64,000 nt of DNA from a virus. The notes below the pieces were generated by a model. The model searched no databases. It was not told the DNA's origin and saw nothing but the letters and a program-made list of their open reading frames with translations. The DNA is taken from IMG/VR virus record IMGVR_UViG_3300031957_002411, positions 1-64,000 of that record; one strand, 5' to 3'. A program made the position numbers and the translations under genes. Position 1 is the first letter of the stretch. Each line of letters starts with the position of its first letter. Below, one piece after another: positions 3,283 to 61,648 of this stretch.

Positions 3283-4570
3283 AAGAAATTTATTACAAGC
3301 CAGTAGTTTTGGTTTTGGTATGCTTGCTCTCAAAGGATTGATTGCAGAAGAGGCTATGCGAAATAATAAAAGAGTTATCTTTATGTATATGAATGGAGGC
3401 ATGACACATACAGATACTTTTGATTACAAACCTTTAATGGTAGAAAAAGATGGCACAGACGATCCTGTAAGTAAAGGTAGAAAGATTGTAAAGCCCGGAG
3501 TGCCATTGACTCCTGCTGGCAAAAGTGGTATAGAGATTAGCGAGAATTTCCCGCATCTAAGAAAACATGCAGATGATTTATGCTTACTCAACGGCATGAA
3601 AAGTAAAACAGGCAATCATAATCAAGCTAGAAGTTTATTGCACACAGGTAATTTTCAATTCAGCAGACCTAGCATGGGTAGCTGGCTATTATATGGATTA
3701 GGCACAGAGAATAAAGAATTGCCGGGGTTCATAACTATAGATGCTAATATCGGCCCTGATAACTATGGCAGTGCTTTTTTGCCAGCAGTATACCAAGGAA
3801 CTGCTATCAATGCTGGAAATGTTCAAAGTCCTATTCCTAATCTTAAAAGTCCAATAGCATTAGAAAAACAAAGAGAGAACCTAGATTTCCTCAGAGATTT
3901 AAATGGTCATCAATTAGGCAATGGTGAGAATAGCAGACTAGAAGGATTGATTGAGAGTTATGAATTGGCTTTTAGGATGCAGACAAGTGTTCCTAGTACT
4001 ATTAATATTACAAACGAACCACCAGCAGTATTAGAAAAATATGGAATAAATGATAAAGCTACAGCTAAATTTGGACGACAATGTTTATTAGCAAAGAAGT
4101 TTAGTGAAGCAGGAGTAAGGTTTGTAGAAATTGGACATGGTGGATGGGACATGCATCAGAATATTGTGGCAAATTTACAAAAACAAGCGTATAATATAGA
4201 TAAGCCAATTAGTGGTCTAATACAAGATTTGAAGGACTGCGGCCTTTTTGAAGACACAATTATATTGTTTGGCAGTGAATTTGGAAGAACTCCGGGTATA
4301 AAAGAAGGTGCAACTGGCAGAGATCATAACAATGGTGGATTTTCTATGTGGATGGCAGGCGGTGGGATTAAAGGTGGAATTAGACACGGTTCTACAGACG
4401 ATTTTGGACATAAAGCAATTCCAGAATATAGCATGGACATGCATGATTTACATGCTACAATTTTACATCTCATGGGCATAGACCACACTAAACTAACATA
4501 TAGATATAGTGGTAGAGATTTTAGGTTGACAGATGTGTTTGGTAATGTACAATATGATATTATAGCTTAG
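3272..4570 (+). CDS. DUF1501 family protein with Tat signal
   Basis: This 432-residue protein starts inside the previous gene (11-base overlap, GGAG-type site just upstream), so the two are translationally linked. The N-terminus has a twin-arginine signal (R4-R5-N-L-L followed by a hydrophobic stretch to about 25), predicting folded export. The rest matches DUF1501, a family in the alkaline phosphatase/sulfatase superfamily: MYMNGGMTHTDTFD near the start, GHGGWDMH near residue 290, a GSEFGRTP motif and a DHNNGGFSMW motif. Its activity is unproven. The stop codon's last base is also the first base of the tmRNA gene. Confidence 0.9.
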   Translation: MLNRRNLLQASSFGFGMLALKGLIAEEAMRNNKRVIFMYMNGGMTHTDTFDYKPLMVEKDGTDDPVSKGRKIVKPGVPLTPAGKSGIEISENFPHLRKHADDLCLLNGMKSKTGNHNQARSLLHTGNFQFSRPSMGSWLLYGLGTENKELPGFITIDANIGPDNYGSAFLPAVYQGTAINAGNVQSPIPNLKSPIALEKQRENLDFLRDLNGHQLGNGENSRLEGLIESYELAFRMQTSVPSTINITNEPPAVLEKYGINDKATAKFGRQCLLAKKFSEAGVRFVEIGHGGWDMHQNIVANLQKQAYNIDKPISGLIQDLKDCGLFEDTIILFGSEFGRTPGIKEGATGRDHNNGGFSMWMAGGGIKGGIRHGSTDDFGHKAIPEYSMDMHDLHATILHLMGIDHTKLTYRYSGRDFRLTDVFGNVQYDIIA

Positions 4571-4907
4571 GGGGCGTAAAGGTTTCGACAGGTAAAAAGA
4601 AATATAGATCGCATCGGGTAGTTGATCAAGAGGCTACCTTAAAACTTGATTACAATTTTAATTGCCGATACTTCTGTATTAGCACTCGCTGCTTAGTGAG
4701 CGGGGTTTCCTAAACCCTGTTGCCCAATTAGGATGACTCCGATAATCGGATAGGGAACGCAACCTGAACTAAATAAGAAATTGGCGTATTCGTCATGGCG
4801 CTGGAAAGACAGATAGTTTTGTTTGTAGTATTAATAACAACAAACTAACGATGTAGAAGTTTATGTGGAGTTTATACTGGACAGGGGTTCGATTCCCCTC
4901 GCCTCCA
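4570..4907 (+). ncRNA. ssrA: tmRNA (trans-translation RNA)
   Basis: The 5' end GGGGGCG followed by the conserved AAGGTTTCGACAGG pairs with CGCCTCC at 4900-4906 (discriminator A4907), and the T arm GGGGTTCGATTCCCC lies at 4884-4898. The tag frame reads GCC at 4664 to TAG at 4694-4696, giving ADTSVLALAA, with the stop codon in the loop of a 6-bp helix (4685-4690/4699-4704). The hydrophobic ALAA-type end fits proteolysis by ClpXP. The RNA frees stalled ribosomes with SmpB, which is not in this window and would come from the host. CCA is not encoded. The first G is shared with the stop codon of the upstream gene. Confidence 0.93.
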
Positions 4908-4924
4908 CTTAGGAAAGGACAACA

Positions 4925-57157: not shown

Positions 57158-58723
57158 TTGAACTGGTTTCCATTGAAGAACTTTACGCATTATAGTTTAC
57201 TAAGAGGATTCTCTAAGCCACACGAACTTGCAAAGATTTGTGCTGACAATGATTATCCAGCATGTGGTATTACAGACTACAAATCTATATCAGGCGCTGT
57301 GTCTTTTCACCAAGCTTGTAAAAAAGTTGGAATCAAGCCAATCATAGGATGCTCATTTGATAACACGACTGTATACGCAAAAAACAAAGATGGATGGCAC
57401 GATCTAATACAAATGGTATCAATGACTGACGAAAATGGCAACATGCCAACAGATATTGCTAAAGATATTATTAGTAGAAATAACCTAGTAGCACTACCAA
57501 AATCTAAAGATAAAATAAAACCTTCGTATTATGTAAAAAAAGAACAAGCTGGATTACATAGAGTTTTATTATGTTCTGCCCTAAAAACAACACTGCCCAA
57601 AATCCAAACTCAAATACGTAAAAAAGAATTAGACAAAGATATACTAGAGTACTTCAATAAAGATGATAAATGTGTCACTGAAGGTGAGGTGACTAAAGAA
57701 TTAGAATACATATACAATTCTTGTGAAGAATACGATATACTAAGCCCACCAATGTTGCCTACCTTTGTTTGTCCTAATGGTATGTCACAAGAAGAATATC
57801 TAACAAATATGGCTAGAAAGGGATATACTGAATTATTAAAACCAAAGGTTGGTAAAGACAAAGAAAAGCAAAAAGTTTATGGTGACAGATTTCAGAAAGA
57901 GTTAGAGGTAATCAGAAATGCAGACCTGTTTGGCTACTTCTTGATTGTTCAAGATATTATCAGACATATAGAAAAAGATATGGGTTGTTTAGCTGGACCG
58001 GGGAGAGGATCTGCTGCTGGTTGTCTGATATCATATCTTATTGGAATCACTAAGATTGATCCAGTAGAACATGATTTGCTATTTGAAAGATTTTATAATG
58101 CGGGTCGTAATGCTGGTGGTAACGTTTCTTTGCCCGATATTGACATGGACGTTCCGGGCAAGAGAAGAGATGATGTCATAGACTATCTCAAGGAAACATA
58201 TGGTAAAGAACATGTTAGTCAAATGATTACGTTTGGAAGACTACAGGGACGTAGTGCTATTAAAGAAGTTTTAAGAATTAATGATGCTTGTTCCTTTAGC
58301 GAAATGAACACTATAACTAAAAGTGTTCCAAATGAAGCAGAAATATCTGACCAACTGGTAGAAATGGACGATGAAGATAGATCAATTATTAAATGGTCTC
58401 TCATGAATCGTGCAGACGAACTAAGAGATTTTTGTCATATAACAGACGATGGAAAGCTTGAAGGTGACTACGCAGAGTATTTCCAGCAAGCAATAGAAAT
58501 AGAGGGAACTTTTAAAACGCAGGGTAAACATGCTGCTGGTGTTGTCATATCAAAAGACAAGCTGAAGAATGTTTGCCCAATGGTAGAACAGAAAGGATCT
58601 ATTGAAAAGATAGCAGGTTTAGAAATGTCTGATCTAGAAGCGCTAGGTCATGTAAAATTTGACGTTCTAGGAATCAATCTTCTAGATAAACTCATGAAAA
58701 TTAAGGAATTAACTAATGGCTAA
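57158..58723 (+). CDS. dnaE: DNA polymerase III alpha (DnaE), N-terminal piece
   Basis: The 521-residue protein (TTG start after TAGGAGAAAA) is the first half of a DnaE polymerase. The PHP domain at the N-terminus has lost its first H-x-H metal motif (WFPLKNFTHYSLL where HLH/HSEYS is usual). The catalytic aspartates are all here: D327 and D329 in LPDIDMDV and D502 in HVKFDVLGI. It ends at KELTNG where a normal DnaE goes on to the fingers. It must pair with the piece at 59724. Confidence 0.9.
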   Translation: MNWFPLKNFTHYSLLRGFSKPHELAKICADNDYPACGITDYKSISGAVSFHQACKKVGIKPIIGCSFDNTTVYAKNKDGWHDLIQMVSMTDENGNMPTDIAKDIISRNNLVALPKSKDKIKPSYYVKKEQAGLHRVLLCSALKTTLPKIQTQIRKKELDKDILEYFNKDDKCVTEGEVTKELEYIYNSCEEYDILSPPMLPTFVCPNGMSQEEYLTNMARKGYTELLKPKVGKDKEKQKVYGDRFQKELEVIRNADLFGYFLIVQDIIRHIEKDMGCLAGPGRGSAAGCLISYLIGITKIDPVEHDLLFERFYNAGRNAGGNVSLPDIDMDVPGKRRDDVIDYLKETYGKEHVSQMITFGRLQGRSAIKEVLRINDACSFSEMNTITKSVPNEAEISDQLVEMDDEDRSIIKWSLMNRADELRDFCHITDDGKLEGDYAEYFQQAIEIEGTFKTQGKHAAGVVISKDKLKNVCPMVEQKGSIEKIAGLEMSDLEALGHVKFDVLGINLLDKLMKIKELTNG

Positions 58724-59396
58724 TAGAGACTTTATTGTATTTGACTTTGAAACAGGAAGTCGTAATCCTCATAAAACACAACCCACGCAAATTGCTGCTT
58801 TGGCTTTAGATGGTCGTAATCTTGCTATGAAAGGTACATTCAACAGTGAAATTAGACCTATCTTAAACGACGAAGCCGCTATTGCTGCTGGGTTAGATCC
58901 AATTGAAGACGGAGCATTAAAAGTTACAGGAAAAAATAGAAAAGATCTAGCGAAGGCTCCAACTCTAAAATCAGTTTGGAAAAAGTTTTGCACATTTGTA
59001 GATAAGTATAATTGGAAAAAAGATCCATTTTATAATCCTATACCTGTTGGATATAATATTATAGGATTTGACATGGTTATAATCAACAGGTTATGTAAAG
59101 AGTATGGACCATTTGACGATGCTAGACAACAGCAAAAAATATTTAGCAGAGTTCACAAATGTGACGTTATGGATAACATGCATATGTGGACAGAGGGTGA
59201 TCCTAGCATCAGATCTATCAGCATGGATACGTTGCGTGAACGCATGGGACTGTCGAAAGAAAATGCACATGATGCGTTGCAAGATGTTAAGGATACGACT
59301 AATATATTTATAAAGCTACTAAAGACTCATCGCGCAGTTTACCAAGAAATACAACTAGACAAGGCTTTTGCTAATGGAAACCTCTACGTTAAGTAA
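58716..59396 (+). CDS. DEDDh 3'-5' exonuclease (DnaQ-like)
   Basis: The 226-residue protein has the three DnaQ exo motifs: FIVFDFETGS (D10, E12), a middle Asp in YNIIGFDMVIINR, and AHDALQDVKDT with the His and final Asp. It can proofread. It lies between the two DnaE pieces, with starts overlapping by eight bases, so it is probably the proofreading subunit of this phage polymerase, replacing the degenerate PHP domain. Confidence 0.88.
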   Translation: MANRDFIVFDFETGSRNPHKTQPTQIAALALDGRNLAMKGTFNSEIRPILNDEAAIAAGLDPIEDGALKVTGKNRKDLAKAPTLKSVWKKFCTFVDKYNWKKDPFYNPIPVGYNIIGFDMVIINRLCKEYGPFDDARQQQKIFSRVHKCDVMDNMHMWTEGDPSIRSISMDTLRERMGLSKENAHDALQDVKDTTNIFIKLLKTHRAVYQEIQLDKAFANGNLYVK

Positions 59397-59724
59397 AGTA
59401 TGCAAGACCTGTGGTATAAAAAAGTCAAACGATGAGTTTGTAAAGGCTGATGGTCAACATCGCTCAACGAGAAACAGATGCAAAGATTGTCATAAAGCAC
59501 AAGCAAACATACGAAAGAAGTTAAGAAAAGAAAACCCACCGCCAAAAAGTGGGAAATGTCCAATATGTCAAAAGCATACAGAGGATTGGGTTTTAGATCA
59601 TTGCCATGTTAATGAAAGTTTTAGAGGATATATCTGTAGATACTGTAACTCTGGGATAGGATTGTTAGGCGACGATGTAGACGGTGTGGTCAACGCATTG
59701 AATTATTTAATTGAAAGAAGATAA
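59374..59724 (+). CDS. Endonuclease VII-like (recombination) nuclease
   Basis: The 116-residue protein has CKTCGIKKSNDEF and CKDCHK zinc-like pairs, then CPICQKHTEDWVLDHCHVNESFRGYICRYCNSGIG (pattern of T4 endonuclease VII: DH.H, RG..C..CN..G, then DD). Such enzymes resolve Holliday junctions, but free-standing copies also act as mobile nucleases. ATG 59374 has AAGG nine bases upstream. Its placement between the polymerase pieces suggests an invading gene. Confidence 0.82.
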   Translation: METSTLSKVCKTCGIKKSNDEFVKADGQHRSTRNRCKDCHKAQANIRKKLRKENPPPKSGKCPICQKHTEDWVLDHCHVNESFRGYICRYCNSGIGLLGDDVDGVVNALNYLIERR

Positions 59725-61283
59725 TGAAATACAACGACGAAAAAACTTGGCAGTTGTTTGAGGAAGGCAAAACAAAAGGTGTCTTCCAGTTAGAGAGTAA
59801 TCTTGGTAAGTCTTGGTCTAAGAAATTAGCACCAAGTAATATAGAAGAATTGTCAGCACTTATTGCGATTATTCGTCCGGGCTGTTTAAAAGCATATGTT
59901 GATGGAAAATCTATGAGCCAACATTTTATTGATCGTAAGCATGGTCGTGAAGAAGTCACGTACCTACATGAATCTCTAGAAGAAATTTTAGCACCAACGT
60001 ATGGCGTTCTTGTGTATCAAGAGCAGTCCATGCGTATTGCGCAAAAAATAGCAGGATTTGATCTACAAGAAGCAGATGAGCTTCGTAAAGCCATTGGAAA
60101 GAAAAAGGCTGACCTAATGGCTAAAGTTAAAAAGAAATTTATAGCTGGTGCAAAAAAGGTTGGTATAGTCAACAAGGAAGAAGCAGAAGAAATATTTGGA
60201 TGGATTCAAGCATCTTCTAGGTACGCATTTAACAAATCACATAGTATATCATATGCTGTTTGTTCATATTGGAGCGCGTATGAGAAAGCTCATCATCCAG
60301 AAGAATTTTTCTTATCATATTTGTACTATGCAAATGAAAAACAAGACCCACATCAAGAAGTATATGAATTATTTTCTGAGGCAAAGTTATTCGATATTCA
60401 AGCAAGAACACCAAGTCTTGCAAATTTTGATACAAAGTTTAATGCTAAAAAGGGTAAAATATATTTTGGTATAAAGGATATTAAATCACTTACAGGTAAA
60501 ACTGGAGACAGAGTTGTTGACTCAGTAAAAGAAGTAGAAGAAGAACTAGGAAAACCAATGACTAAGTTCACATGGGTTGAAATACTCTTGTTCTTTGCTC
60601 CCAAAATTACTTCAACAGCTTTTAAAGCGCTTGCTTCTATAGGATTTTTTAGGGACTTTAAGGATAAAATATCTAGAAATAAAGCTCTATACGACTATGA
60701 TATATACAGATTACTAACCAAGGCAGAGCAAAAATGGATACAAACAAATTACCAAACAAAGAAATGGAAAACTTTTATAGCCTGCTTAGAGGATTTAGCA
60801 CCAACAAAAAAGAATGGTGGTGGAACCCACAAAATCGAAAGATCGCAAGCTGTTGAGAATGAGATACAGTTATTACTAGACCCTCCATACGCCTTAGATG
60901 ACGACCCAAACTGGATTATAGATCAAGAAACTAGATTTCTAGGATGCCCAGTATCAATGACTAAGGTAGAGGTTGCAGATACTTCAGCAGCTAATACCAC
61001 TTGCAAAGATATCATAAATGGTAAGAAAGGCAAAGATATATGTGTAGTGGGCAACATTCAAAGAATGGCAGACTATACTATCAGCAAGGGTGACTCAAAG
61101 GGGAAGCTCATGTCATTTCTAACCATAGAGGATGACACATGCATTTTAGATAGTGTTGTAGTATTTCCAAAAATTAGACAGAAATATAAATATATATTAT
61201 ACGAAGGTAATAATCTGATATTTTGCGGCTCTGTTGCCAAACACGAAACATCTCTAATAGTCGATAAAATTTATGAAATTTAA
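59724..61283 (+). CDS. dnaE: DNA polymerase III alpha (DnaE), C-terminal piece
   Basis: The 519-residue protein begins with WQLFEEGKTKGVFQLESNLGKSW and IEELSALIAIIRPGCL, exactly where DnaE continues after D555-equivalent. It goes on with LVYQEQSMRIAQKIAGF, ASSRYAFNKSHSISYAVCSYWSAYEKAHHPEEFF (fingers), then the helix-hairpin-helix and beta-binding region and an OB-fold part (KDICVVGNIQRMADYTISKGDSKGKLM). Together with the first piece it makes a full polymerase (about 1040 residues). TAATG overlap with the nuclease. Confidence 0.9.
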   Translation: MKYNDEKTWQLFEEGKTKGVFQLESNLGKSWSKKLAPSNIEELSALIAIIRPGCLKAYVDGKSMSQHFIDRKHGREEVTYLHESLEEILAPTYGVLVYQEQSMRIAQKIAGFDLQEADELRKAIGKKKADLMAKVKKKFIAGAKKVGIVNKEEAEEIFGWIQASSRYAFNKSHSISYAVCSYWSAYEKAHHPEEFFLSYLYYANEKQDPHQEVYELFSEAKLFDIQARTPSLANFDTKFNAKKGKIYFGIKDIKSLTGKTGDRVVDSVKEVEEELGKPMTKFTWVEILLFFAPKITSTAFKALASIGFFRDFKDKISRNKALYDYDIYRLLTKAEQKWIQTNYQTKKWKTFIACLEDLAPTKKNGGGTHKIERSQAVENEIQLLLDPPYALDDDPNWIIDQETRFLGCPVSMTKVEVADTSAANTTCKDIINGKKGKDICVVGNIQRMADYTISKGDSKGKLMSFLTIEDDTCILDSVVVFPKIRQKYKYILYEGNNLIFCGSVAKHETSLIVDKIYEI

Positions 61284-61330: not shown

Positions 61331-61648
61331 ATGAACAATTGTTGTTTTACTGGATACCTTGTAGAAAACCCTAGAACGTCAGTGGTCGGAGATGTCGTAC
61401 TAGCTGAGTTTACTGTGGTCGTATATAATTATAGAAGAACAAAAAGCACTGGAGAAAAGAGTAGGATACCCACTTACTTAAATTGCGAAGCTTGGCACAC
61501 AGGCGCTGAAACTATCGAAAGATTTGCAACAGAAGGAACAAAAATTACAATAAACGCTTCAGCAAAAAATAGATCTAAAGATGATGAGTCTGTTGTTTTC
61601 AGAATAAACGAATTTGACATATGCAGTCAAGACTATAACGAAGAATAG
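61331..61648 (+). CDS. ssb: Second SSB-like OB-fold protein
   Basis: The 105-residue protein has NCCFTGYLVENPRTSVV, LAEFTVVVYNYRRT, PTYLNCEAWHTGAETIERFATEGTKITINASAKNRS, the SSB strand pattern. It is less typical than the copy at 19598 and has an acidic tail (QDYNEE). It sits right after the polymerase pieces. A weak TATACT box (61310-61315) and AGGAGAGA precede it. Confidence 0.75.
   Translation: MNNCCFTGYLVENPRTSVVGDVVLAEFTVVVYNYRRTKSTGEKSRIPTYLNCEAWHTGAETIERFATEGTKITINASAKNRSKDDESVVFRINEFDICSQDYNEE

Follow-up and report, generated by a model that had tools for sequence, protein, structure and literature searches.

Locus and position of the break

The window analyzed here, 64,000 nucleotides from a virus (positions 1 to 64,000 of the IMG/VR virus record IMGVR_UViG_3300031957_002411, which comprises 135,790 bases), carries a C-family DNA polymerase of the DnaE type that is encoded by two genes, dnaE-N and dnaE-C. 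An exonuclease gene and a nuclease gene occupy the gap. This arrangement, which had been proposed in a sequence-only reading of the window, is confirmed by the open reading frames (ORFs), whose positions agree with that reading, and by Pfam matches. The features are as follows:

57158..58723, + strand: dnaE-N, 521 amino acids (aa); PHP-like domain (metal site lost), palm and thumb; D327, D329 and D502
58716..59396, + strand: DEDDh 3'-5' exonuclease, epsilon/PolC-exo type; D10, E12, D119, H185 and D190
59374..59724, + strand: Endonuclease VII-like gene of the HNH superfamily, a probable mobile insert
59724..61283, + strand: dnaE-C, 519 aa; fingers, HhH and OB region of the same C-family polymerase
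61331..61648, + strand: SSB-like OB protein, directly 3' of dnaE-C

The gap is a chain of genes linked by start/stop overlaps. dnaE-N starts at a TTG preceded by an AGGAGA-like site, the exonuclease start overlaps the dnaE-N stop by 8 nt, the Endonuclease VII-like gene begins within the 3' end of the exonuclease gene, and the dnaE-C start overlaps the stop of the Endonuclease VII-like gene. The Endonuclease VII-like ORF was listed from a TTG at 59368, and the ATG at 59374 (METST...) is the better start, matching the homologues. The SSB-like gene probably belongs to the same replication operon.

The dnaE-N protein matches PF07733 (DNA_pol3_alpha, E 1.4e-68) and PHP (E 8e-16), and the dnaE-C protein matches the fingers domain PF17657 (DNA_pol3_finger, E 1.3e-49). 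Aligned to the phage DnaE family phrog_405, the N half covers positions 244–614 and the C half positions 627–1055, with almost nothing missing between them. In profile searches of solved structures, the C half starts at residue 590 of E. coli Pol III alpha; in Taq alpha, the N half stops at ~629 and the C half starts at 650. These alignments place the break in the palm/fingers loop, 3' of the third catalytic aspartate, which agrees with the earlier claim of a break just past the palm. All three catalytic aspartates lie in the first gene, as had been noted, and D327, D329 and D502 are invariant in 32 sequences of the split clade described below. The assignment of fingers, HhH and OB parts to the second gene also holds: HhH and OB give no match above the Pfam cut-offs in the window's DnaE-C protein, the OB region gives a weak second alignment to E. 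coli alpha (about residues 900–1057), and the same region of a relative (L358) matches HHH_6 and an OB fold. Single-chain models of the two halves, predicted as separate folds, are confident, with a predicted local distance difference test (pLDDT) score of 88.9 for the N half and 90.0 for the C half, and both match Pol III alpha in the PDB. The DnaE-C proteins of some deep members (L103, L106, L117, L118, L127 and L130) bear an N-terminal extension with a CGC motif, which is not seen in the window's DnaE-C.

The halves could be joined after translation by split-intein ends, or a spliced intron could restore one frame; either would yield a one-chain mature polymerase. DnaE-N extends only 12–32 residues past the palm motif (n=210 distinct loci), and no more than 69 codons precede TKGxFQ, the first conserved motif of DnaE-C, so that no N-intein fits at the break, and an Int-N after the N part with an Int-C before the C part was not found there. 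The window proteins have no Hint match in Pfam, and the gap, made of overlapping genes, has no group I/II intron match in Rfam at E≤1. The absence of intein ends reported in the sequence-only reading thus stands, and splicing of the intervening region, which that reading had named as one outcome that would refute it, finds neither an intron nor space for an intein. Trans-splicing is nevertheless a mechanism available to these phages, since true split-intein fractures, with Hint or Intein_splicing matches, occur in the same clade at other breaks, within DnaE-N or DnaE-C (L065, L225, L226 and L358). At the palm/fingers break, we consider it barely tenable. The fractures themselves are possibly new split inteins; a nuclease-like ORF lies between the intein halves in L065:2570-5337, and L358:12316-15223 likewise has a split-intein fracture in DnaE.

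Distribution and age of the split

Relatives were gathered by five IMG/VR scans, four of which comprise the best 80 loci of about 380–570 relatives, and the loci were annotated by a six-frame profile search. The identity of the halves ranges from 100% to about 43%. The order DnaE-N, exonuclease, DnaE-C on separate ORFs is found in all 330 loci that span the region (317 simple and 13 with an additional interruption), 218 of which are distinct by their exonuclease DNA; across the clade, the DnaE modules do not reside on one polypeptide. The same pipeline recovers a single chain for 4 cultured-phage and 75 cellular DnaE loci. Because the arrangement recurs in 218 distinct loci, a single sequencing frameshift or assembly error is rejected as an account of the split. 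A search of related phages for the unsplit form, as had been proposed, found none among the 330 clade loci; since most scans comprise the best 80 loci, unsplit forms may exist further out. Two contigs with the same order occur in metagenome-assembled genomes (MAGs) labelled Flavobacteriales and Lokiarchaeota and are probably phage contigs in these bins. No description of this split-DnaE clade was found in the literature, which is weak evidence as subscription journals lie outside the coverage.

Some loci carry further interruptions. One in-frame stop codon lies within DnaE-N at L030:6011-6013 and may reflect an error, decay or readthrough, and in four loci (L242, L243, L244 and L247), DnaE-N is broken elsewhere, at about profile position 225, by roughly 1.1 kb in which no intein was recognized.

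A tree was built from 107 split representatives together with unsplit DnaE of phages and cells. In it, the split forms make up one clade (support 0.988, stem 0.63), and its sister group is formed by Chryseobacterium phage MA9V-3 and Dulem virus 36, in both of which DnaE is unsplit. Monophyly with an unsplit sister implies, by parsimony, one ancient break with no reversal in the sample. The ratio of nonsynonymous to synonymous substitution rates (dN/dS) is about 0.02–0.08 in the N half, the exonuclease and the C half for pairs with estimable dS, values that are rough because several dS are high or saturated; conservation of this kind suggests that the function of the separate chains is kept. 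The distance matrices correlate at 0.91 (N and C), 0.85 (N and exonuclease) and 0.89 (C and exonuclease), which shared ancestry alone could yield.

Genes lodged in the gap

The gap exonuclease matches RNase_T/DEDDh (E 3.4e-13), and all 318 aligned sequences have the same D-E-D-H-D catalytic residues. The PHP domain of the window phage is without metal-ligand residues at the positions checked. By motif search only, the PHP metal-ligand motifs are lost throughout its subclade (156 sequences), and all four scored motifs are kept in 119 other clade sequences. A DEDDh site that is kept throughout, together with PHP motifs that are lost, is compatible with a transfer of proofreading to the exonuclease in the gap. 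We consider the exonuclease the likely proofreader of the split polymerase. As the sequence-only reading had it, the gene order would then carry its own proofreader, and the exonuclease does lie between the halves in every complete locus.

The neighbouring nuclease gene matches Endonuclease_7 (E 1.1e-12). The suggestion that this nuclease caused the split did not survive the comparison of loci. Endonuclease VII-like genes are present in 27 of the 218 distinct loci, only at the junction of exonuclease and DnaE-C and never between DnaE-N and the exonuclease. The gap holds the exonuclease alone in 25 of the 218, and in a further 119 its only other gene is a small ORF preceding the exonuclease. 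Cases are on record in which a homing endonuclease split a phage gene (PMC2988022). Nucleases are also found at the junctions in this clade, and this gene, or a direct ancestor at the same spot, might have made the break in the manner of mobE in Aeh1 nrdA. Given its distribution, and the unrelated inserts found elsewhere, such an origin is very unlikely. Because the gene is optional, is confined to one junction and is missing from many loci, the split is older than the Endonuclease VII-like gene, which is a late arrival and not the cause. Another element may have caused the first break; it must be older, and now be gone or unrecognized.

Other inserts at either junction encode an FkbM methyltransferase, a glycosyltransferase, a uracil-DNA glycosylase and further unassigned products. 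The junctions that flank the exonuclease behave, by these gene contents, as tolerated insertion sites, an example of a break in a replication gene that acts as a long-lived insertion site. In deeper subclades (L086-L130), the ORF between DnaE-N and the exonuclease is small and conserved (about 60–80 aa) and belongs to at least two unrelated families.

A proposed two-chain replicase and its known counterparts

We propose, with a probability of roughly 0.84, that an ancient fission gave rise to a fixed C-family replicase of two non-covalently associated chains, coupled with a DEDDh proofreader. An ancestral phage dnaE would have been broken once in the palm/fingers loop (E. coli alpha about 573–590) and then fixed. 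Both dnaE genes and the lodged exonuclease gene would be translated from overlapping start and stop codons, and the chains would fold apart, with the PHP-like domain, palm, thumb and three catalytic aspartates in N and the fingers, HhH and OB in C. They would then associate non-covalently to form one active C-family polymerase, the replicase of the phage. The exonuclease would proofread, a task of most weight in the window phage's subclade with its decayed PHP metal site, and the junctions flanking the exonuclease gene would take up endonucleases and cargo, among them the Endonuclease VII-like gene. As the break is ancient and fixed, we infer strongly from the sequences that the two DnaE chains assemble, reassembly proceeding without covalent joining. 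The two-chain DnaE that the sequence-only reading had envisaged is supported by halves on separate ORFs in 330 loci. By analogy with the split T4-like PolB (PMC2988022), non-covalent assembly is the most likely mechanism.

The role as replicase depends on what else these phages encode. A single palm domain, residing in an ORF of about 520–650 aa, was found in each of 24 clade records (67–244 kb); the window's own record likewise has just one, and its ORF is of half length. These 25 records gave no match to PolA or PolB, and PF00136, which marks the B family, was detected neither in the window phage nor in the clade records. A second DNA polymerase in the phage is rejected because no PolA, PolB or second palm domain was found. 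Genes for a DnaB-like helicase, a primase, UvsX and SSB are present in the same window, which also has a tRNA-Arg(tct) at 472-543 and a tmRNA gene (tag ADTSVLALAA) at 4570-4908.

Some hosts have DnaE forms that are error-prone or accessory (DnaE2, DnaE3), and the window phage has lost its PHP site; both would fit a decaying or accessory polymerase in a phage that is replicated by another enzyme. This is highly improbable in view of the strong purifying selection on all parts, the invariant active sites of polymerase and exonuclease, the missing PolA and PolB and the replication genes in the window. Several points do weigh against a two-chain replicase. No sliding clamp was detected by PF00712 in the window's record, although phage clamps may escape this profile. 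The phages could use the host polymerase, the split pair serving something else. The structure models are of single chains and not of a complex of the halves, and the sister phages are distant (stem 0.63), so that the transition itself is not seen.

The two-chain replicase might also be an obligate core of three subunits (alpha-N, exonuclease, alpha-C), with the exonuclease as a structural component, co-translated between the halves and needed for their assembly, instead of a loosely attached proofreader. We regard this as unlikely; if true, the palm/fingers break would be a selected feature of replicase assembly. With either composition, the split locus offers a way to test how gene order and co-translation shape the assembly of a replicase. 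A monophyletic group of aquatic phages apparently keeps DnaE broken through deep divergence, with the gene of the likely proofreader fixed in the break, which suggests that the palm/fingers hinge can be cut permanently and offers a naturally occurring site at which Pol III alpha could be divided for reconstitution.

To our knowledge, C-family replicases have been described as single chains or as intein-ligated halves. The bacterial Pol III core (alpha and epsilon) and PolC likewise pair a C-family polymerase with a DEDDh proofreader. Pol III alpha, however, is one chain, and the PolC exonuclease is a domain of the same chain, whereas the split clade carries the two DnaE halves and the exonuclease as separate genes. 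Cyanobacterial dnaE is also divided into two genes, at a different site, and the chains are ligated by inteins, in contrast to the break here, which has no room for intein halves. Dassa et al. (2009), a study cited in PMC7090010 and PMC10448857, reportedly described phage-like genes that are fractured into coding parts, with the involvement of a free-standing endonuclease gene, and healed by protein trans-splicing. The intein fractures of the L065 type in our relatives resemble these fractured genes; the palm/fingers break is not healed in this way.

Among cultured phages, the annotation of Rhodococcus phage Weasels2 (NC_041887.1 61576-65329, L456) divides DnaE between two overlapping genes, one for a PHP part (305 aa) and one for the remainder. 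In the isolate Bacillus phage G, DnaE consists of three pieces: gp329, which has a Hint domain, gp331 and gp339 (L471, JN638751.1 238000-250500). It likewise has a break close to the palm/fingers boundary, where unrelated genes separate the pieces. Unlike the split locus of the window, phage G has an intein-like Hint domain and the GIY-YIG endonuclease gp330 at its second break, and an exonuclease was not recognized among the gap genes tested. Its DnaE falls outside the split clade (605 of 962 columns were available for phage G), so that its break looks independent.

Among the closest precedents are split enzymes of other phages. gp43A and gp43B of Aeromonas phages 25 and 44RR likewise form a phage replicase of two chains, and those of phage 25 co-purify and show polymerase activity (PMC2988022). 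That polymerase belongs to the B family and the split DnaE to the C family. The gp43A/gp43B gap is occupied in phage 25 by a Seg endonuclease and in 44RR by an untranslated spacer (PMC2988022), and holds no proofreader gene of the kind lodged in the split DnaE. NrdA of Aeh1 is likewise an essential phage enzyme in two cooperating chains with a nuclease gene, mobE, in the gap (PMC2988022). The Aeh1 insertion is described in one phage, whereas the split of DnaE is ancient and clade-wide and its nuclease is optional: an endonuclease gene at the break is present not throughout but in 27 of 218 loci.
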